This document shows, piece after piece, positions 14,076 through 60,690 of a DNA stretch of 64,000 nt. This DNA comes from Lichenicola cladoniae (lineage in GTDB: Bacteria > Pseudomonadota > Alphaproteobacteria > Acetobacterales > Acetobacteraceae): the NCBI RefSeq assembly GCF_013201075.1, contig NZ_CP053708.1:4407501-4471500 (forward strand), read 5' to 3'. Under the pieces are notes generated by a model. The model was not told the origin of the DNA and did not search any database. It was given only the letters and a program-made list of their open reading frames with translations. Position 1 is the stretch's first letter; every line of letters begins with the position of its first letter. The position numbers were made by a program, and so were the translations under genes.

Positions 14076-15317
14076 TCAGCCGATGAACTCGGGCAGCTCC
14101 GTTTCGTGGAGCAGGCGGACGCCACTGGCCGCGGCAAAGCTCCTCGCTGCCTTGGTGTAGCCGGCGTTGGACACCACTGCGGCAAGATTGGCGTCCTGGG
14201 CCCGGCGAACGATCAACGCCTCCTGCACCACCACCGATTCGAGTGGCTGCGTCGAAGGACGACATTGGATCGTCAGTAGGCGCCCGTCGCGCTTGGCAAT
14301 GATATCCGCGGTGAGGCCACCGGCCGGAAAGCTTATCCGTGCCTGCCAGCCCGCCTCGCCGAGCGACTTCACGCAGCGCTGGCGATAATCCTGCGTATCG
14401 ATCGGCGGCAAAACCTGGTCCGGGCTGCCGTCCGGCACGGCGGGCGCCTGGCTATCGAGCCGCTCGCTCAACGACAGCTCCTGCCGACGAAGGCCGACCC
14501 GGCGACGGCTCCGCCGGCGAAGCCCCAGGACGATCAGTCCGGCCAAGACGACCAAAGCAGCAACGAGGCCGATGGCCGGGGCGGTTCTGGTCGAAGCCAG
14601 GTTGGCGGGCGTGGCGACCGGGGGAGGCTGGATCGCGGGGATATCCGGTGGTGCCGTCCCGGTGGGCGCCGGCGTTGCACTCGGCACGGCCGCCGGCGGC
14701 TCCAATCCGGGTGATGCCGGGGTGGATGGGTCGTTTGCGGGCGGTTTCGACATCGAGTCCGGCGCTGCCACGGGCGGTATGCTGTCCGGAACCGGATCGG
14801 GCGCCGGTGGTATCGCCTCCTGGGCAGGCGGCACGGTCGTTACCAGTGCGGGTGCCGGTGCCGCTGCCGCTGCGACCGGATCGGTGGCAGGAGCCGGCTG
14901 GGGATTGGGCGGGCTCAGATCCTGCGACGATACCGCTGGAGCAACTGGAACCGGGAGCGGAACCGGGGCCGGCGCATCCACTGCGATACGCCCCCGCTGC
15001 AGATCGGTCGGGCGGAAGAACAGCGAGGTGATGCCGGGCGCCGACGGCACCGGTCGCAGCAGGAGAAGGCCATTGGTTCGGCCGATCTGCTCCCATTGCT
15101 GGTTCGGACCGACCATCCGGCACTGGCCACGATCGATGACATGCCTCAGCCAGCGGTAATCATGCCGGCGCGGATTGTGCTGGTCGTTCACCGCCCACGT
15201 CGTCCACGTCACGACGCAGCCGAAGCTCGGTGCACGGACCTGGTATCGGTCCGCCGCGAAGGAGGCATCGGACAGCACGAGCGTTAAGCTCGCCGCCGCC
15301 ACAGTTAGCAAACGCAT
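14076..15317 (-). CDS. Membrane-anchored protein with C-terminal Mrr-like nuclease domain
   Basis: A 413-residue protein of unusual build. It has a signal peptide (about 1-22, ending SFAAD), a small N-terminal domain with two cysteines (about 25-110), a Pro/Ala-rich linker of about 120 residues, one membrane helix (about 232-252, GLVAALVVLAGLIVLG) followed by a basic stop-transfer run, and a C-terminal domain (about 300-413). The last domain reads like an Mrr-type PD-(D/E)XK restriction domain: GGLTADIIAKRDGRLLTIQC, then the helix VVVQEALIVRRAQDANLAAVVSN. The position that is usually lysine in the QxK motif is arginine (QCR). Topology predicts that this domain is cytoplasmic. Function unknown; the linker length and domain order are the reasons for interest. 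Confidence 0.75.
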   Translation of the reverse strand: MRLLTVAAASLTLVLSDASFAADRYQVRAPSFGCVVTWTTWAVNDQHNPRRHDYRWLRHVIDRGQCRMVGPNQQWEQIGRTNGLLLLRPVPSAPGITSLFFRPTDLQRGRIAVDAPAPVPLPVPVAPAVSSQDLSPPNPQPAPATDPVAAAAAPAPALVTTVPPAQEAIPPAPDPVPDSIPPVAAPDSMSKPPANDPSTPASPGLEPPAAVPSATPAPTGTAPPDIPAIQPPPVATPANLASTRTAPAIGLVAALVVLAGLIVLGLRRRSRRRVGLRRQELSLSERLDSQAPAVPDGSPDQVLPPIDTQDYRQRCVKSLGEAGWQARISFPAGGLTADIIAKRDGRLLTIQCRPSTQPLESVVVQEALIVRRAQDANLAAVVSNAGYTKAARSFAAASGVRLLHETELPEFIG

Positions 15318-15425
15318 CGTCTTGCCTTCTGAGCTAGTCCACAAAATAAGATCTTATGGCGTTATTGGCTCCATTTGGCTAATTGACCGAAGAGGCATGG
15401 CGAGGATGCGGGCGAATGCAGGCCT

Positions 15426-53258: not shown

Positions 53259-53786
53259 ATGATGGCGCCGATGCTGATCCCCGAAACCCGATCGCAGCCC
53301 GGCTGCACCGAGCCACGCGCAGGCGGTTCCGGCGATTCCGGCTTCACGCTGCTGGAGGTGCTGGTCGCGTTCGTGATCGCGGCGCTGGCACTCGGCGTCC
53401 TGTTCGAAGGCGCCGTCGAGGGTATCCGCTCGACACGCATCGCCGATCGCACCCAGGAGGCGATGTCGCGCGCCCAGTCGCACCTCGCCACCATCGGGCA
53501 TGGCGTGGCCCTGGGGCCATCGACCCAGGAAGGCGAGGACGGAAGCGGCTTCCATTGGAGCCTTCGCATCGTGCTGCTGCAATCCGCTACCATCGGTTCG
53601 AGCGACGGGTCGAATGGCGGGTTCGGCAATGGCGGGGGCGATTCCGGCGGCAAGCAGCCGCGGGCGGCCCTGTATGCTGTCCAGGTCACGGAATCCTGGC
53701 CCGACGAGGCGGCGGCGGGCGATCATACCCGGTCCGTCACGCTCCGCACCGAGCGGCTCGGCCAGCTTCAGGGTGCCGGTCCGTGA
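53259..53786 (+). CDS. gspI: Type II secretion minor pseudopilin I
   Basis: A 175-residue prepilin-like protein. The cleavage site and helix are GDSG, then FTLLEVLVAFVIAALALGVL near residue 28. The C-terminal half contains a Gly/Ser/Asp-rich insert (about 115-135), which is longer than in many GspI proteins. GspI nucleates the pseudopilus tip with GspJ and GspK. The start lies at tandem ATG codons (53259 and 53262). It overlaps gspJ by four bases (GTGA). Confidence 0.85.
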   Translation: MMAPMLIPETRSQPGCTEPRAGGSGDSGFTLLEVLVAFVIAALALGVLFEGAVEGIRSTRIADRTQEAMSRAQSHLATIGHGVALGPSTQEGEDGSGFHWSLRIVLLQSATIGSSDGSNGGFGNGGGDSGGKQPRAALYAVQVTESWPDEAAAGDHTRSVTLRTERLGQLQGAGP

Positions 53787-54400
53787 GGGTGCGCGCCCGG
53801 GCGGCCGGAGATGCCGGCTTCACCCTGCTCGAGATCATCGTGGCCCTGGTGGTGCTCGGCATCCTGCTGTCGACGCTGACACGCGGCGTGCAGTTCGGGC
53901 TCGCCGCGTTCGATCGACAGGACCGGATGATCCAGACCGGTGGCCGGCTGGAAGCCGTCGACCGGACATTGCGCCGCCTGATCGAGCAGCTCGACCCGGG
54001 CACGTCGACCGACGGCGACACCGTTGCCGGCGGGCAGCACGTGCTGGTGTTCCGGAGCCCGCTGCGCCTCGCCGGCTCAAGCAAGCCCGGCGATCCCCAG
54101 ACCGACGGTCTGCTGAATTTGCGGTTGTCGGTGGATTCCGGTCACCGCCTGATCCTGACCTGGTCACCGTACCGCCATGTGATCCCGACCGGTCCCGCCC
54201 CCAAACCGCACGATGACGTGCTGATGACCGGAGTGGACCGGATCGACATCAGCTACTTCGCGGAGGGCGGCTGGCATACGCGGTGGCGGCAACCGGCACC
54301 GCCGGCGCTGATCCGCATCCGCATCGTGTTCCCGGACGGCGACCCCCGCCACTGGCCAGATATCGTCGCCGCTCCTGTGCGTGAGCAACCAGGCAATTGA
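53783..54400 (+). CDS. gspJ: Type II secretion minor pseudopilin J
   Basis: A 205-residue pseudopilin. The N-terminal leader is MRVRARAAGDAG, followed by FTLLEIIVALVVLGILLSTL, with the conserved glutamate at +5. The body (GLAAFDRQDRMIQTGGRLEAV, then a beta-rich part ending IRIRIVFPDGDPRHWPD) fits GspJ. The start is the GTG at 53783 that overlaps the gspI stop codon, a coupled arrangement; a GTG two codons later is also possible. A 564-base gap then separates it from gspL. Confidence 0.85.
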   Translation: MRVRARAAGDAGFTLLEIIVALVVLGILLSTLTRGVQFGLAAFDRQDRMIQTGGRLEAVDRTLRRLIEQLDPGTSTDGDTVAGGQHVLVFRSPLRLAGSSKPGDPQTDGLLNLRLSVDSGHRLILTWSPYRHVIPTGPAPKPHDDVLMTGVDRIDISYFAEGGWHTRWRQPAPPALIRIRIVFPDGDPRHWPDIVAAPVREQPGN

Positions 54401-54964
54401 GCCGATGACCCGTCGTGTCTCGCGCAGCGATCCTTGCTGACTCGTGGTCGCAACGCCTGCCAAAATTATTCCCACGGTGTAGATCCGGCCAGTTCATGAA
54501 CGGGCCATCCTTGGACATCGACACGAGTCTCGACCAAATTCGTTGACGAACAAATGAACTCCTACGGACCTCTCGACAGTTCGGCATGTACGTCTGCATG
54601 CAACATCGACGGTGCATTCAACAACATGCTCTGGAAGAAGTCCGAGAATCGCCCGTGTGTTGACTGATCGTTCATCTAATATTTGTTACGATATAGGATC
54701 GAACCCATATCGGTGAACTGGAATTGTTGTTAATCTTGGATGAACACTCTGTGGATGACCGGGTCGCCATGCCTTGTCCGGACTTCATGCCTGCCGGGCA
54801 TGAAGTCGTCCGGTGGCGGCAGGGGTTGGCCGGTGTCGGCTTGAACGCACTCGGCCGGCAGATCGGTCGCCGAAGTCGTTGAACCGGCAAATGGCATATT
54901 TGGCCCCGCCGGGGCCGCGTAAGCGGATTTCAACCGGGACGAGCTTGATCTATCGTTGGTCCCG
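54401..54964. other. Non-coding gap between gspJ and gspL with an 11-base hairpin
   Basis: I see no supportable gene in this 564-base gap. Its first 400 bases are AT-richer than the surrounding genes. A perfect 11-base stem (GACTTCATGCC/GGCATGAAGTC, 5-base loop) lies at 54781-54807, and a 6-base GC stem (GGCCCC/GGGGCC) near 54902-54916. A TTGAAC (about 54880) and TATTTG (about 54897) could form a promoter for the gspL-K operon. The hairpin may end the gspIJ transcript or control the following operon. Confidence 0.45.
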
Positions 54965-56086
54965 ATGATTGCGGATGTTCTGACCTGGTGGTCGCGCCAG
55001 ATGCTCGAGCTGGTACCGGCGCGCTTTGCGCGTCCGGACCCGTCCGCCGTGGGCGCATTGCTGGTCGAGCCCTATCCGCGCGGCGACGGCATCCGTCTGG
55101 TCCGTCGCCAGGCCGGCGAGGAGACGGTGCTGGGCGATGTACCGCTGCGCCGTAACGGCTTCGGCGATACGCAGGACACCGGCGTCGCGACCGATCCAGA
55201 CGGGACGCTGGATGCGGATGACGATGCCGGCCTGCGGACAGCCCTGTCCGCCGCCGGGGCCAATGGAGCCGGCGGCATGGTGCTGCTACGGCTGCCGGCG
55301 GGAACCGCGCTGCAGCGCGACGTGACGTTGCCGCTTGCCGCAGAGGCCGGGCTCGATCGGGTGCTGGCCTACGAAATGGACCGGCTGACCCCGTTCGCCG
55401 CCGACGACATCTTCTTTTCCTGGGCCGTGCTGCGACGCGACCGCGAGGCGGGCCGGATGCAGCTGCGTCTTTCGCTCGTGCCCAAGGCGCCGCTGCTGCC
55501 GCTGCTCGAAACGTTGCGCAGTGCGGGGGCCGGCCCGCGGGCGATCGAGATCCGCGGGGCCTCGCCCGGGTCGGCCCGGCCGCTACGCATTCCGCTCGCC
55601 CATGAGCGGCCGGCCTCGGCACGACAGGAGCGCCGCCTGCTGCTGATGGCCGGCGGATGCTGCGCGATGCTCGCACTGCTGGCGATCGTGCTGCCGTTCA
55701 TCCTGCAGTCGGTGGCCGCACATAAGCTGGATCGACAGGTCGCCGGGCTGCAGCCCCGGGTCGACGCGGTGCAAGCGCTGCGTCGCCGGATCGCCGGCAG
55801 CACCGCCGGCGGCGATCTGGTCAGTACCGAACGCCGTCGCCTGGGCGATGCGCTGGGTGTGATGGCCGCGGTGACGCGGGTATTGCCCGATGACAGCTAT
55901 CTCTCTGACTTCACCCTGCGCCAGGGCGTGCTGACGATCAGCGGCCAGTCGCCGGGCGCCGCCAAGCTGATACCGGCGATCAGCAGCGATTCCGCATTCT
56001 CCGCCCCGGCCTTCGCCGCTCCGGTCACCCGGATCGAAGGCCAGAACACCGACCTGTTCTCGATCCGCGCCGGTGTCACCCGCTGA
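54965..56086 (+). CDS. gspL: Type II secretion inner-membrane protein L (GspL/PilN-like)
   Basis: A 373-residue bitopic protein: a cytoplasmic domain (about 1-220) of actin-like GspL type (GLDRVLAYEMDRLTPFAADD and SLVPKAPLLPLLETL), one membrane helix (about 227-250, LLLMAGGCCAMLALLAIVLP) and a periplasmic PilN-like ferredoxin-fold part (GVMAAVTRVLPDDSYLSDFT, then GQSPGAAKLIPAI). GspL recruits the GspE ATPase and pairs with GspM. The ATG at 54965 has only a weak ribosome-binding site; a TTG three codons earlier is possible. The gspM ATG overlaps its stop by one base. Confidence 0.85.
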   Translation: MIADVLTWWSRQMLELVPARFARPDPSAVGALLVEPYPRGDGIRLVRRQAGEETVLGDVPLRRNGFGDTQDTGVATDPDGTLDADDDAGLRTALSAAGANGAGGMVLLRLPAGTALQRDVTLPLAAEAGLDRVLAYEMDRLTPFAADDIFFSWAVLRRDREAGRMQLRLSLVPKAPLLPLLETLRSAGAGPRAIEIRGASPGSARPLRIPLAHERPASARQERRLLLMAGGCCAMLALLAIVLPFILQSVAAHKLDRQVAGLQPRVDAVQALRRRIAGSTAGGDLVSTERRRLGDALGVMAAVTRVLPDDSYLSDFTLRQGVLTISGQSPGAAKLIPAISSDSAFSAPAFAAPVTRIEGQNTDLFSIRAGVTR

Positions 56087-56727
56087 TGGCCACTTCCCAG
56101 CGCTCCCTCGGCACACGTGCCGGTTCCCTGCCCGAAGGCCGTGCGGGACGGGCCCTGGCGCTCGGCATCGCCGCCATCATCCTCCTGCTGCTGTGGGAGG
56201 CGGTCGGCAGTCCGTTGATCGACTGGTACCAGGACCGCGCCCAGGCCATCGCCGGCCGCCGTGCCCTGGTGGCCCACATGCAGACCCTGGCAGCCGACCT
56301 GCCCGCCCTGCGCCAGGCTGCCGCGTCCAGCGCCGCACGCACCGGCCCGGTGGCGCTGATCGAGGGGAGCAGCGATGCGGTCGCGGCGGCGGCCTTGCAG
56401 GAGAAGGTGCAGCAGATGGCCGCTTCACTCGGCGCCACCCTCTCCAGCACCGAAAGCCTGCCGGCGAGCCAGGCGGGCGCCTACCGGCGGGTCGGTGTGC
56501 GGATCTCGGTCAGCGCCACGTTCGAGGTGATGGTGCGGCTGATCGCGGCGATCGAGCAGGCGTCACCGTCGATGCTGATCGACGACCTGCAGTTGCACGG
56601 TTCGCGGATCCTGTTGCAGGCCTCGACACCGCTGGAAGGCGCCCTGACCGTCATGGCATTCCGCTCCGGCAAGCCGGATGCGCCCACTGCTGCAGGTGCC
56701 GGCGCGCCGGACGACCAGTCGCCATGA
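56086..56727 (+). CDS. gspM: Type II secretion inner-membrane protein M
   Basis: A 213-residue bitopic protein with one N-terminal helix (about 24-42, ALALGIAAIILLLLWEAVG), a coiled stretch and a periplasmic ferredoxin-like fold (YRRVGVRISVSATFEVMVRL, SMLIDDLQLHG). This is the GspM pattern; it forms the inner-membrane platform with GspL. Start and stop overlap the neighbouring genes (TGATG with gspL, ATGA with the next gene), indicating tight translational coupling. Confidence 0.82.
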   Translation: MATSQRSLGTRAGSLPEGRAGRALALGIAAIILLLLWEAVGSPLIDWYQDRAQAIAGRRALVAHMQTLAADLPALRQAAASSAARTGPVALIEGSSDAVAAAALQEKVQQMAASLGATLSSTESLPASQAGAYRRVGVRISVSATFEVMVRLIAAIEQASPSMLIDDLQLHGSRILLQASTPLEGALTVMAFRSGKPDAPTAAGAGAPDDQSP

Positions 56728-57419
56728 GCGCCCCGGTCCCCCGCCAGGTACGACCGCGGCCGCTGTTATGGCTGGCCTCCGGATGCGCATGCGTGCTTGT
56801 GGGGTTGCTGGCTCTTGAATATCACTCCGGCGTCGCTCGGGAGATCAGCCTGGCCCACCCATCAGACCATGTCGCGACCGCAGCCCGGGCGGCCGGCCCG
56901 GATGCGACTGCCGGTTCCTCGCCAACCCCGCTCGTCGTGCAGGACTGGACCAAGACCGTGCTCGCTCGTCCGTTGTTCAGCCCGTCCCGCCGTCCGGCCG
57001 CGACCGTAGCCGCAGGCCCGCAGCAGCCGCGTCTTGCAGGGATCGTCATGGGCCCGTCCGGACGCCGCGCGATCTTTGCAGGCGAGGGAGACGCCCGCGG
57101 TATCGTCGCCGAGGTCGGGCAACAGGCAGGTGCGTGGCAGATCCGGGCGATCAACGAGACCACCGTGCAGGTGATCGGTCCCGAGGGGCTTCGTACGCTC
57201 ACCCCATCGCGTGACTCCACGGCCCCCGCCGATAACGATGGTTCGGCCGCTGGAACGCCGACACTTCCGACGCATCCGTCGATCCTGGATCTTCTGCGCA
57301 ACCGGTCGCTCCAGATCGGACCGGCGAACGCGTCGATGCCGCATTTGCCAACATCATTGCAGCTGCCACGGACTCCACCCAACCGGGGTCCTATCGGCGA
57401 CCAGGAATCACCGCCTTGA
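56724..57419 (+). CDS. Type II secretion GspC/GspN-like protein
   Basis: A 231-residue protein with an N-terminal membrane helix (about 14-32, LWLASGCACVLVGLLALEY), then a periplasmic linker and a homology-region-like domain: VLARPLFSPSRRP, RLAGIVMGPSGRRAIFAGEG and WQIRAINETTVQVIGPEGL. In the assembly such a protein links the inner platform to the secretin. The C-terminal PDZ of classical GspC is missing, which is why short forms are also named GspN. The tail is Pro/Thr/Ser-rich. Confidence 0.75.
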   Translation: MSAPVPRQVRPRPLLWLASGCACVLVGLLALEYHSGVAREISLAHPSDHVATAARAAGPDATAGSSPTPLVVQDWTKTVLARPLFSPSRRPAATVAAGPQQPRLAGIVMGPSGRRAIFAGEGDARGIVAEVGQQAGAWQIRAINETTVQVIGPEGLRTLTPSRDSTAPADNDGSAAGTPTLPTHPSILDLLRNRSLQIGPANASMPHLPTSLQLPRTPPNRGPIGDQESPP

Positions 57420-59830
57420 TCGCTTCGTCAGATAGCCCGATGCCACGTCTGTCCCCGATGCGATCCATGCCCGTCTCCAGGCTCACGGCACTTCTCGCCA
57501 CGGCGGGCCTGATCCTGTCCGGCTGCAATCGGGTCGAGCAGCCGGTGATCAGGCCGTTGCGGCCGCTGCAGTCCAGCATCAATGCCGCCCAGCCACGGAC
57601 CGACGGCGATATCGGCGCGATCGATCGGGTGCAGGCGCCCCAGATCAGCTACGGCCGCAACCACCAACCGACCGTCAGTCGCGGCACCGGGCCGACCGGT
57701 GCGGGGTCGATCACGCTCAACTTCAGCGATACCGACATCCGCGACGTAGCCGCGCAGATCCTCGGCGGCCTGCTGCATGCAAATTACACGATCGATCCGG
57801 CGGTCAAGGGAACGGTGACGCTGCACACCTCCACGCCGCTCGACATCAGCCAGCTCGTGCCGACGCTGCAGGTGCTGCTGTCGCAGGTCGGCGGGACGCT
57901 CTACCAGTCCGGCGGCATCTATCGGATCGTCGCCACCACCGGCGGCGGACAGCCTGCCGGTGGTCCGCCGGGCGGCGGCGGCGGTAGCGGCTCGCAGGCG
58001 TTGGCCGAAGGCGCCGCCCTTGCCGGCAGTGCGATGGTGCCGCTGCGCTTCGCGGGTGCCGAGGATCTCGCCAAGGCGTTGCAGCCGTTCGTTCAGGCCG
58101 GCTCCCGCATCACGCCGGTCGCAGGGTCCAATGCGCTGCTGATCAGCGGGGACCCGACCGTCCGCAACACTCTGGTGAACCTGATCCAGGCCTTCGACAT
58201 CGATGCGCTGGCCGGCCAGTCCTACGCGTTGCTGCCGGTCGATTCCGGGGATGCGAAGGATATTGCCACCTCGCTGCAGGAAGCGCTGCGCGGACGCGGT
58301 GGTTCGCTTTCGCAGGTGGTCCGGGTCATCCCGATGACCCGTGTCGACGCGGTCCTGGTGGTGGCCAACGACGCGAACTACGTCAACGACGCGCGGCGGC
58401 TGTTCATGCTCATCGAGCGGACCCGGCGCACCACGGTCCGGTCCTGGCACGTCTATTACCTGCAGAACAGCCACGCCAACGACGCGGCCTACGTGCTGCA
58501 GCAGGCCTTCACGCCGAACGACGTGACGGCGCAGCCGACGCCGACGCTGCAACCGAACATTCCCGGCTCGAACGGCCAGAGTGGCGGATCCAGCTCGGGC
58601 GGCCTGGGCTCGAGCGGCGGATCGAGCGGCGGGCTCGGATCCAGTGGTGGCCTCGGTTCCAGCGGCAGCCTCGGTTCCAGCTCGGGCGGCTCCGGATCGG
58701 GCGGTGGGCTCGGATCGGGACTTGGATCGAGCAGCGGCAGCCCGTCCGGAAACACGGGAAGCTCCGGACCGACCGGCGGTGGCCAGACCGCCGGCGCCAA
58801 TCCGCTGCTGGGAGGCCTCGACAGTTCCGGCGGCGGCGGTGCCGAGGCACGGACGATGAAGATCATCTCCAACCCGCAGAACAACGCGATCCTGGTCTAT
58901 GCCACCGACCAGGAGAACGACACGGTCAACCACATGCTGCGCAAGGTCGACATCCTGCCGCTGCAGGTACGGATCGACGCCGTCATCGCCGAAGTCCAGC
59001 TCAACGACTCGCTGCAATACGGCACCCAGTTCTTCTTCAAGTCGGGCGGCATCAACGGCGTGCTGAACACCGGAGCCGCGTCCGGCACGAGCATTACCGG
59101 CGCCCTGACCGCGGGAGCCTTGAGCAGCACCCTGCCCGGCTTCATCATCGGCGGCACCGGCAATGGCGGGGCGCCCTTCGCGATCAACGCGCTGCAGGCC
59201 GTCACCACCGTGCATGTGCTGTCCTCGCCGGAACTGCTCGTGCTCGACAACCAGCCGGCCCGGCTGCAGGTCGGGCAGCTCGTACCGATCCAGACCGGCT
59301 CGAATTCGAGCACCATCGGCACCTCGGTGTTCAACCAGTTCACCTACCAGCCGACCGGCGTGATCATGCAGGTCACGCCCCGGGTCAATAATGGCGGCCT
59401 GGTGACGCTCGATATCTCGCAGGAGGTGAGCTCTGTCGCGGTGAACGGCACCGCTACGACCAATCCGACCTTCAACGACCAGTCGGTGGTGTCGCGTGTC
59501 GTCATCCAGGACGGCCAGACGGTCGGTTTGGCCGGGCTGATCACCGACCAGAGCAGCCGCGGCAACAGCGGCATTCCCTGGCTCAAGGACATTCCGATCC
59601 TCGGCCTGCTCGGCGGGAGCCAGAACAATGTGCGGGCGCGCACCGAGCTGCTCATCCTGATCACTCCGCACGTCATGCACGACCAGCGCGATGCCCAGGC
59701 GCTGACCGAGGATCTGCGCGACACGCTGATCAACGCCGCCGCGGTGCCTGACGAGCTGACGCCGATGCGCCAGACCGGCAGCGCCGATCCGCAGCAGCGG
59801 GTGCGGCGACGCACCGGCCTCGACAACTGA
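57416..59830 (+). CDS. gspD: Type II secretion secretin D
   Basis: An 804-residue secretin lipoprotein. The signal ends with a lipobox (LILSGC, Cys37 from this start). N0 starts with ITLNFSDTDIRDVAAQILGG; N1, N2 and N3 follow, then the secretin domain with VRIDAVIAEVQLNDSLQYG, VHVLSSPELLVLDNQPARLQ, VGQLVPI and the C-terminal VGLAGLITDQSS-x-GNSGIPWLKDIPILG. N3 is interrupted by an extremely Gly/Ser-rich insert of about 100 residues (about 385-480). The start used is the TTG at 57416, which overlaps the upstream stop and has AGGAA upstream; ATGs at 57440 and 57458 are equally compatible with a signal peptide. Confidence 0.92.
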   Translation: MIASSDSPMPRLSPMRSMPVSRLTALLATAGLILSGCNRVEQPVIRPLRPLQSSINAAQPRTDGDIGAIDRVQAPQISYGRNHQPTVSRGTGPTGAGSITLNFSDTDIRDVAAQILGGLLHANYTIDPAVKGTVTLHTSTPLDISQLVPTLQVLLSQVGGTLYQSGGIYRIVATTGGGQPAGGPPGGGGGSGSQALAEGAALAGSAMVPLRFAGAEDLAKALQPFVQAGSRITPVAGSNALLISGDPTVRNTLVNLIQAFDIDALAGQSYALLPVDSGDAKDIATSLQEALRGRGGSLSQVVRVIPMTRVDAVLVVANDANYVNDARRLFMLIERTRRTTVRSWHVYYLQNSHANDAAYVLQQAFTPNDVTAQPTPTLQPNIPGSNGQSGGSSSGGLGSSGGSSGGLGSSGGLGSSGSLGSSSGGSGSGGGLGSGLGSSSGSPSGNTGSSGPTGGGQTAGANPLLGGLDSSGGGGAEARTMKIISNPQNNAILVYATDQENDTVNHMLRKVDILPLQVRIDAVIAEVQLNDSLQYGTQFFFKSGGINGVLNTGAASGTSITGALTAGALSSTLPGFIIGGTGNGGAPFAINALQAVTTVHVLSSPELLVLDNQPARLQVGQLVPIQTGSNSSTIGTSVFNQFTYQPTGVIMQVTPRVNNGGLVTLDISQEVSSVAVNGTATTNPTFNDQSVVSRVVIQDGQTVGLAGLITDQSSRGNSGIPWLKDIPILGLLGGSQNNVRARTELLILITPHVMHDQRDAQALTEDLRDTLINAAAVPDELTPMRQTGSADPQQRVRRRTGLDN

Positions 59831-60690
59831 TCGGCAACCGGCACCGCCTCGTCGCCCGGGACCTCCGCGATCCCGGGTTCGCGTTGCTGATCGTGCTGTG
59901 GACGCTGGTGCTGATTTCGCTGCTGGTCTCGACCATCGCGGCATCCGGCAGTGGCCGGACCAGGCAGGCGGCCGACCTCAAGCGCAACGCCCAGCTTCGT
60001 GCCGAAGCGGATGGCGGTGTCGAGGAAGCGGTATTCCATCTGCTCGACGGCTCGAAGGCGCACTGGCCGGCGGACGGCGCCGTTCACGTGATCAAGCGCG
60101 GCGACACCGTGCTGACGATGCGCATCGACACCGAAGCCGGCAAGGTGAACCCGAACCGGGCTTCGCAGGACCTGCTGGCGGGACTGTTCCAGGCGCTGGG
60201 CCTCGATAGCCGCACGGCACTGGCCACCGCCACGCGGATGATCGTCTGGCGGTTCGCCGGCGCCCAGGGCGCGGCCGAGCATGGCGATGGCCGGGACTAC
60301 CTGCCGCCCGGCGCGCCGTTCGAGTCCATCCCCGAAGTCGGGCTGGTGGCGGGCATCACGCCCAGCCTGCTGGCCCGGCTCGCGCCGCATCTTTCACTCT
60401 ATCGCGATAACGACCCGGAACCGGCATCCGCCGATCCGGTTGTGCAACAGGCGATGGCGATCGCGGCCGGCACCGGCGACACCGCGCGCCAGAACGCGAT
60501 CGCCGGCTCGAACCAGCAGGGCAACAACCGCGACGAAAGCGTCGTGTCGGTCATATCCGAAGCGAAGGACGCGACCGGACGGCGCTTCGTGCGACGGGCG
60601 ATCGTGCTGGTCGGCTCCGACCCGCAGACGCGCGGAAAGCCCGACCAGCGTCCATTCCAGATCATGACCTGGGACGCCCCCGCCGCCTGA
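59827..60690 (+). CDS. gspK: Type II secretion minor pseudopilin K
   Basis: A GspK-type pseudopilin of about 287 residues, which caps the pseudopilus tip. The prepilin site and helix are RDPG, then FALLIVLWTLVLISLLVSTI; further conserved features are LRAEADGGVEEAVF and the KVNPNRASQDLLAGLFQALG helix-hairpin-helix-like part. The first ordinary start codon in frame (TTG, 59884) lies inside the hydrophobic helix and would remove the cleavage site. No ATG, GTG or TTG precedes it in frame after gspD. A CTG overlapping the gspD stop (CTGA at 59827) would give an 18-residue basic leader, so I use it provisionally. Confidence 0.7.
   Translation: MIGNRHRLVARDLRDPGFALLIVLWTLVLISLLVSTIAASGSGRTRQAADLKRNAQLRAEADGGVEEAVFHLLDGSKAHWPADGAVHVIKRGDTVLTMRIDTEAGKVNPNRASQDLLAGLFQALGLDSRTALATATRMIVWRFAGAQGAAEHGDGRDYLPPGAPFESIPEVGLVAGITPSLLARLAPHLSLYRDNDPEPASADPVVQQAMAIAAGTGDTARQNAIAGSNQQGNNRDESVVSVISEAKDATGRRFVRRAIVLVGSDPQTRGKPDQRPFQIMTWDAPAA

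Follow-up and report, generated by a model that had tools for sequence, protein, structure and literature searches.

The closest described relatives of the protein studied here are the type IV nucleases of the Mrr type. Mrr has a DNA-binding domain beside its nuclease domain, and the E. coli protein responds to high pressure. Our protein is encoded in the window, by which we mean the whole stretch of 64,000 nucleotides of Lichenicola cladoniae DNA that was analysed. It shares its C-terminal domain with Mrr (Mrr_cat, PF04471), both by profile and by fold, but it differs from the type IV enzymes in having an exported domain and a membrane helix, and in having lost the catalytic glutamate and the QxK motif. 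The DNA-binding partner domain was absent as well: only Mrr_cat passed its Pfam cut-off, and the rest of the protein consists of an exported two-cysteine (2C) domain, a linker and the helix. Membrane-anchored PD-(D/E)XK proteins have been described before. COG4741, with its N-terminal membrane helix and predicted cytosolic nuclease domain, and RmuC combine a nuclease fold with an N-terminal membrane helix, as does the window protein; in the excerpted source text, however, no exported sensor-like domain was described for them, and the active-site motif of COG4741 was said to be well conserved (PMC1189080).

Other systems use such folds as modules. Mrr_cat is reported to be an exchangeable effector domain of STAND-type anti-phage proteins (PMC9122126). 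NA-iREase1 (NACHT-associated inactive restriction endonuclease, PF22722) would, as the name says, be a module that retains a restriction-endonuclease fold in inactive form, and in this it resembles the window protein, which differs in giving no match to it at E 1 and in having no NACHT domain. ZorD of the Zorya system is a large helicase-nuclease, whereas the window protein has no helicase. ZorD was its sole PADLOC match (E 0.001, 14.9 bits, Mrr-like tail only) and was rejected: the match was limited to positions 962-1058 of the 1071-position model, no Pfam helicase was detected, and none of eight scanned neighbours matched PADLOC. Phage inhibition by Shango has been described in Pseudomonas and, through a citation in the same paper, in E. 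coli (PMC10250203). Three SngA-type Shango proteins of Acetobacteraceae share with the window protein a 2C domain and a membrane helix in front, but in the cytoplasm they carry TerB where the window protein carries Mrr. TerB_N was not matched by the window protein, and SngB had no match in its genome. No description of a fusion of exported domain, membrane helix and Mrr, or of the 2C domain in Acetobacteraceae, was found in the openly licensed literature searched. How signals pass from the envelope to a cytoplasmic nuclease in bacteria is largely an open question, and the 2C family places a small exported domain on one side of a single helix and a live or dead nuclease on the other. The features of the window gene are as follows.

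14076..15317 (-): gene for a 413-aa single-pass membrane protein, stop included (ORF reading and homologues)
15325..15328 (-): AAGG, possible ribosome-binding site, seven-base spacer to the ATG (by eye)
15252..15317 (-): signal peptide, about residues 1-22, with cleavage near SFA/AD (read by eye; AlphaFold2 models a helix at 2-18)
14988..15254 (-): exported 2C domain, residues 22-110, possibly SH3b-like (alignment, pLDDT about 90, NlpC2 match)
15216..15218 (-): codon of Cys34, invariant in 23/23 aligned 2C domains (alignment)
15120..15122 (-): codon of Cys66, invariant in 23/23 aligned 2C domains (alignment)
14577..14984 (-): Pro/Ala-rich linker, residues 112-247, predicted disordered (composition and AlphaFold2)
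14517..14576 (-): transmembrane helix, about residues 248-267, then RRRSRRR (hydropathy and AlphaFold2)
14085..14399 (-): Mrr-type PD-(D/E)XK domain, residues 307-411 (Pfam and predicted structure)
14382..14384 (-): R312 replacing the helix-1 glutamate (alignment)
14304..14306 (-): D338, catalytic aspartate retained (alignment)
14259..14261 (-): R353 replacing the QxK lysine, in Q351-C352-R353 (alignment)

The open reading frame spans 14076-15344 (-), with 422 codons from a TTG; the ATG at 15317 gives the 413 residues used for numbering here. The TTG at 15344 is an alternative start which would add nine residues and leave the picture unchanged. A chance frame was ruled out by the matches of the protein in other genomes. 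In positional GC (0.72/0.57/0.77) the gene resembled three other genes of the window and differed from its antisense frame. The N terminus, MRLLTVAAASLTLVL..SFA/AD, reads by eye as a signal peptide. Hydropathy gave an N-terminal peak and one internal membrane helix, and the RRRSRRR behind this helix would place the C-terminal domain in the cytoplasm according to the positive-inside rule. The linker contains 42 P and 31 A in its 136 residues. In the AlphaFold2 model, calculated with a nine-protein alignment, most ten-residue blocks of the two end domains had a pLDDT of about 90, while the linker remained below 50 almost throughout. Weak matches to CcmD, DUF4381 and nitrate reductase lay on the membrane helix, below the cut-offs, and were discarded. 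By these predictions the protein would span the envelope, with a signal peptide, one transmembrane helix and a cytoplasmic C terminus. The original prediction had joined signal peptide, membrane anchor and Mrr-like domain in one protein, and sequence, Pfam and AlphaFold2 agree with it; its placement of the exported domain outside and the nuclease-like domain inside is supported by sequence, hydropathy and structure prediction, and the plan recurs across Acetobacteraceae.

Pfam recognised Mrr_cat at residues 316-420 of the 422-aa frame (307-411 of 413) with E 4.8e-10 and 40 bits, the cut-off being 21. The model of the C-terminal domain matched AF1548 (1y88) with Z 14.5 over 105 residues and an rmsd of 2.3; EndoMS, MspJI and archaeal Hjc were further matches among the matches listed. 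By profile and modelled structure the domain is of the predicted PD-(D/E)XK fold, in agreement with the Mrr identity proposed at the outset. Its catalytic letters are R312 for E, D338, Q351 and R353 for K, only the aspartate (and the glutamine) being retained; the aspartate was invariant in an alignment of 18 Mrr domains. The arginine at the QxK lysine had been noticed before and is indeed R353, but that reading was incomplete, as the helix-1 glutamate is gone too. With both residues absent, the alteration or loss of nuclease activity that had been suspected appears more probable than was claimed.

To place these losses in the family, 91 distinct Mrr domains were collected at E under 1e-6 and their catalytic letters read. 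E, D, Q and K were all present in 64 of them, one read EDQR, one EDRK, and 25 were degenerate. Other letters stood at both the E and the K position in 24 of the degenerate domains, and the remaining one (L048) had V for K, with the E position unaligned; D was retained in ten of the 25. The same frame carried 2C in 23 of the 25, and the other two (L017, L018) were frames cut at contig ends. Mrr domains with 2C comprised 27 intact and 23 degenerate ones. Among the 41 without a 2C match, three belonged to cut frames (L006, L017, L018), and none of the 38 uncut ones was degenerate at both positions. The EDQR domain (L007, G036:C24:66732-67052), with its single K-to-R exchange, belongs to a 176-aa frame, compared with about 310 aa in close relatives, and is possibly broken.

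A tree was calculated with the catalytic columns omitted from 74 of the 91 rows, after dropping a duplicate tail (L139), the EDQR domain and 15 others over 93% identity. The degenerate domains fell into two sets, requiring two changes of state, on a tree that has long branches, that of the window protein included, and a bootstrap that had not settled; a single degenerate clade was not rejected (p-AU 0.193). The first set has nine rows (the window protein, the sister copies of its genus, G129 and G114) and keeps the aspartate, and the second (genera g100 and g113) has lost it in 15 of the 16 sequences read. The original prediction had named two observations that would speak against it, a non-nuclease fold and homologues lacking the acidic residues: a non-nuclease fold was not seen and the window protein keeps its aspartate, but the relatives of the second set have mostly lost theirs.

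The 2C profile matched in 40 of the 397 Acetobacteraceae genomes, at 56 places, and at 43 of these the same frame ends in Mrr. Of the 13 places without Mrr, four are cut at contig ends (G004 has two of them, G003 and G363 one each), three have a TerB_N or SngA match (L064 and L065, TerB_N E 8e-45 and 1.6e-38; L067, SngA 93.4 bits), and L040 (the frame of L015, G014) consists of 2C and a membrane helix only. There are also shorter frames (L068, L069, L070, L075) with 2C near the C terminus and no nuclease, some having a lipoprotein-like start by eye. L082 was not accepted as a 2C carrier, its match being marginal and probably due to chance. Relatives occur in three species of Gluconobacter, in Gluconacetobacter azotocaptans, Asaia astilbis and Tanticharoenia sakaeratensis, and further in an uncultured Rhodospirillales genome and Acetobacteraceae bacterium KSS8; in a whole-protein search of named genomes none of 27 pattern matches was confirmed. 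Elsewhere in the family, the membrane helix of intact Mrr proteins comes with another exported stretch or with no such stretch, and a few of these proteins have no membrane helix by the hydropathy measure. Some intact members of the family match NA-iREase1 (PF22722). In L137, L139, L140, L147 and similar ones, an intact, membrane-held Mrr follows a different, larger exported stretch with a shared SL.G pattern (by eye). In a class-wide draw of 289 genomes, the window's own included, 2C was found in one genome outside the family and the Mrr model matched in 27; outside the family an N-terminal membrane helix was present in L155-L158 and L161, among others. Membrane-held Mrr is thus not peculiar to Acetobacteraceae, whereas the exported 2C domain nearly is, and the plan of 2C, transmembrane helix and Mrr is a family trait of Acetobacteraceae.

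Are the degenerate domains maintained? Median dN/dS values, calculated after Nei-Gojobori with a script of our own, were 0.145 for the dead domains of g100 (66 pairs) versus 0.135 for the live ones (45 pairs), and 0.109 for the dead domains of g113 (6 pairs). By these ratios the dead Mrr domains of g100 are under purifying selection like the live ones, and those of g113 are strongly constrained as well. For the genus of the window the medians were 0.69 for five sister dead domains (10 pairs) and 0.34 for three live ones (3 pairs), with dS unreliable or compressed at this GC3; the value of 0.69 speaks for weak constraint or rapid change.

A degenerate copy was found in 24 of the 397 genomes, letter-read in 23 and, in G363, deduced from the half with 2C together with an Mrr match of 68.6 bits that lies on a different contig. 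In 23 of these 24 genomes, that of the window (G000) included, an intact copy was also present: in four of the five genomes of the window's genus (not G001), in 13/13 of g100, in 4/4 of g113, and in G114 and G129, which amounts to five genera and not to 24 independent cases and is confounded by descent. A match of at least 100 bits outside the known degenerate copies occurred in 77 of the 397 genomes, 54 of them among the other 373, these matches being only partly letter-read and one (G036) being the EDQR frame. G001, a MAG listed as 100% complete, has a degenerate copy and no intact one. The intact copy had no 2C match in five of the 24 genomes (G002, G114, G116, G129, G266), and that of G003 is cut. 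In the window genome live and dead copies are not adjacent. The intact paralogue, found around G000:C1:2501208-2502284, reads as an LprI-like stretch (by eye), PG_binding_1 (E 3.7e-6) ahead of 2C, then 2C, a transmembrane helix and Mrr with E-D-QxK, the Mrr domain being at G000:C1:2501208-2501531.

Our leading, though tentative, reading is that the window protein may be a single-pass inner-membrane pseudonuclease which works with its intact paralogue, as a non-catalytic partner or a brake. The 2C domain would read an envelope cue, peptidoglycan or another periplasmic one. The Mrr fold in the cytoplasm would no longer cut, its surface being kept for DNA binding or pairing. Mixed dimers with the intact paralogue of the same genome, or competition with it for DNA, would be the way in which the two work together, and the dead copy would thereby set when the live nuclease acts. 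We infer that 2C reads the state of the envelope, that the dead domain acts either on the live domain or together with it, and that DNA cutting is controlled in this way, including the direction of the control. In favor of a paralogue partner we count the anatomy and predicted fold, the constraint on dead copies, their coexistence with an intact copy, the recurrence of the 2C plan, on which all degenerate domains in uncut frames are found, the peptidoglycan-binding domain before 2C in the intact paralogue, and the 2C domain and helix at the head of SngA in Shango loci. Against it we count G001, which has no intact copy, the lack of adjacency, the intact copies without 2C, the fast-evolving sister dead domains in the window's genus, the missing orthologue for the Mrr domain of the window copy, the confounding of coexistence by descent and the loss of the stretch between membrane and Mrr, which could have been a pairing surface. 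Dead copies conserved in genomes that have live ones too provide a clean case for pseudoenzymes regulating DNA-cutting enzymes.

On the exported side, Cys34 and Cys66 were invariant in all aligned 2C domains, and AlphaFold2 modelled two strands, three helices and five strands. Among the 23 members no convincing Pfam family was found (best E 0.022, for Cupin_6 in two members and Ceramidase_alk in one), nor any Pfam SH3 match at E 1. Procerain B, the lone PDB sequence match (E 0.26), was taken as chance. The model of residues 22-110 matched residues 15-81 of NlpC2 from Trichomonas (6biq) with Z 7.4 over 63 residues and an rmsd of 2.1; this match had rank 50, the last among the matches listed, and of these it was the one that covered 2C. 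With a second model, that of the intact Tanticharoenia relative L130, none among the matches listed covered 2C; a structure search can miss single domains. Residues 15-81 of NlpC2 are an SH3-type domain, and an SH3b-like 2C domain may be taken as a lead only. An envelope-facing sensor, as had been suggested, is plausible, with peptidoglycan or another periplasmic cue as putative input, in view of the one SH3-type structural match and of the peptidoglycan-binding domain on one paralogue; the sensing itself we infer.

A membrane tether without a nuclease partner is, in our estimation, rather unlikely. Here the dead Mrr domain would bind DNA, either of the nucleoid or on its way in, and thereby connect it with an exported domain bound to the wall. 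The retention of the fold and of Cys352 with the catalytic E and K gone would fit such a role, as would the short link between membrane and Mrr. In the window's genus the degenerate copies have 34-38 residues in this stretch, compared with 28 in G114 and 66 and 91 in G129. In the second degenerate set it has 102-112 residues, and in 2C-bearing intact proteins with a called helix 102-124, largely helical in the L130 model. The window group has lost most of a partly helical stretch of about 110 residues which the intact proteins with 2C retain. The sister copy that stands alone in its genome (G001) and the type II secretion genes directly upstream of the relative of the window gene in G004 also speak for a tether. 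However, the near-constant intact copy would be left unexplained, and the DNA binding is putative.

Quite unlikely, to our mind, is a broader proposal in which 2C would be a general periplasmic receptor of Acetobacteraceae on several intracellular nucleic-acid effectors (Mrr, Shango), with the dead Mrr domains as dedicated brakes or decoys of the live ones in a transmembrane nuclease/pseudonuclease pair. A cell-wall event or the entry of phage DNA would then free an enzyme that cuts the chromosome or the phage, in analogy to the control of kinases by pseudokinases.

Shango, an anti-phage system already established, also carries the 2C domain. The three TerB-type 2C proteins scored 240, 225 and 93 bits against the PADLOC SngA model; they are Shango-type SngA proteins to whose front an exported 2C domain and a membrane helix have been added (L181, G100:C239; L182, G396:C94; L183, G240:C39). 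The neighbouring SngB reached 545.7 bits in L181 and 546.1 bits in L182, and SngC of L181 811.3 bits; L181 is a complete Shango locus (SngA-SngB-SngC) whose SngA is fronted by 2C and a membrane helix. SngB was found at over 500 bits at 18 places in the 397-genome family draw. The 2C-bearing SngA adjoins SngB in G100 and G396, and in G240 the 2C half at the end of contig C39 is likely linked to the C-terminal SngA piece and SngB at the end of C42. Upstream of SngB, where the DNA was examined for the other 15 places and C42 of G240, an SngA-like frame was present in 14 of 16 (none in L204 and L208 at 1e-10). Of the 14 frames, L213-L216 have a membrane helix but no 2C, and the remaining ten, the G240 piece among them, lack both. 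The front end thus differs between Shango loci, and with its helix at the head of SngA the 2C domain behaves as a movable input for nucleic-acid-directed effectors. The 2C-fronted SngA suggests an envelope input into Shango.

That the window gene is a relic, which lost catalysis and is now decaying, we regard as improbable. The high dN/dS among the sister dead domains of its genus would agree with decay, and of the four other genomes of the genus just one, G004, yielded a close relative of the window copy. This relative ends at a contig edge and leaves the Mrr domain of the window copy without an orthologue here. In the 2C part of the pair dN was 0.297 and dS 0.794, which argues against decay. 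The frame, which is intact and normal in coding composition and includes signal peptide and membrane helix, a confident predicted fold and the strong constraint on dead copies in two other genera argue against it as well.

A stand-alone defence effector, which would sense infection or DNA entry outside and act on phage DNA with its inner domain, appears very unlikely. The original prediction had considered a defence role, which has indirect support: 2C is also found on the SngA of Shango loci, a candidate defence helicase is next to one sister copy, and Mrr_cat is reported to serve as an exchangeable effector in STAND-type anti-phage proteins (PMC9122126). The sister copy L003 has pheT on one side and, on the other, a Schlafen group 3 helicase and then lepA. 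The helicase (L090:6161-8215 (-)) matched the PADLOC candidate PDC-S41 with 718.8 bits, and its first ATG is located downstream of the dead Mrr copy that is linked to pheT, at a distance of about 60 bases. With halves on two contigs in G003 and G004 counted as one gene, the sister copy adjoins pheT in four of the five genomes of the genus (G000, G001, G003, G004) and the helicase in four of five (G000, G001, G002, G004). With gene order so largely fixed, these genes would be old and passed on by vertical descent, which sets them apart from defence genes that are mobile. The window gene itself is surrounded by genes for MOSC, DUF3574, glyoxalase and DoxX proteins and two frames without Pfam match, and none of the eight neighbours scanned matched PADLOC at E 0.001. 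The defence part of the prediction is weakened by this and by the stable gene order, and the missing catalytic residues count against an effector. A function of the window copy could not be derived from its neighbours, which are nonspecific; the relative in G004 has different ones.

Hardly credible, finally, is a nuclease that is still live because its active site has been rearranged, with R353 or some other residue in the role of the lysine: D338 is retained, and migration of catalytic residues is tolerated among PD-(D/E)XK enzymes, but the glutamate is an arginine as well, and in the nine-row window group both positions vary (R or K for E, one unaligned; R, Q, H, L or V for K), unlike a conserved new site.

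Two minor observations concern gene arrangement. In G230 (contig C80) two near-identical Mrr tails lie about 2.6 kb apart, one in a full protein (L139) and one in a 140-aa frame, which resembles a tail duplication. The window also contains type II secretion genes at 53259-60687 (+) (N_methyl, T2SSJ, PilN, secretin, T2SSK). Their counterparts in G004 are those directly upstream of the relative of the window gene, and in the window genome the two are about 38 kb apart, probably through an insertion or a rearrangement.
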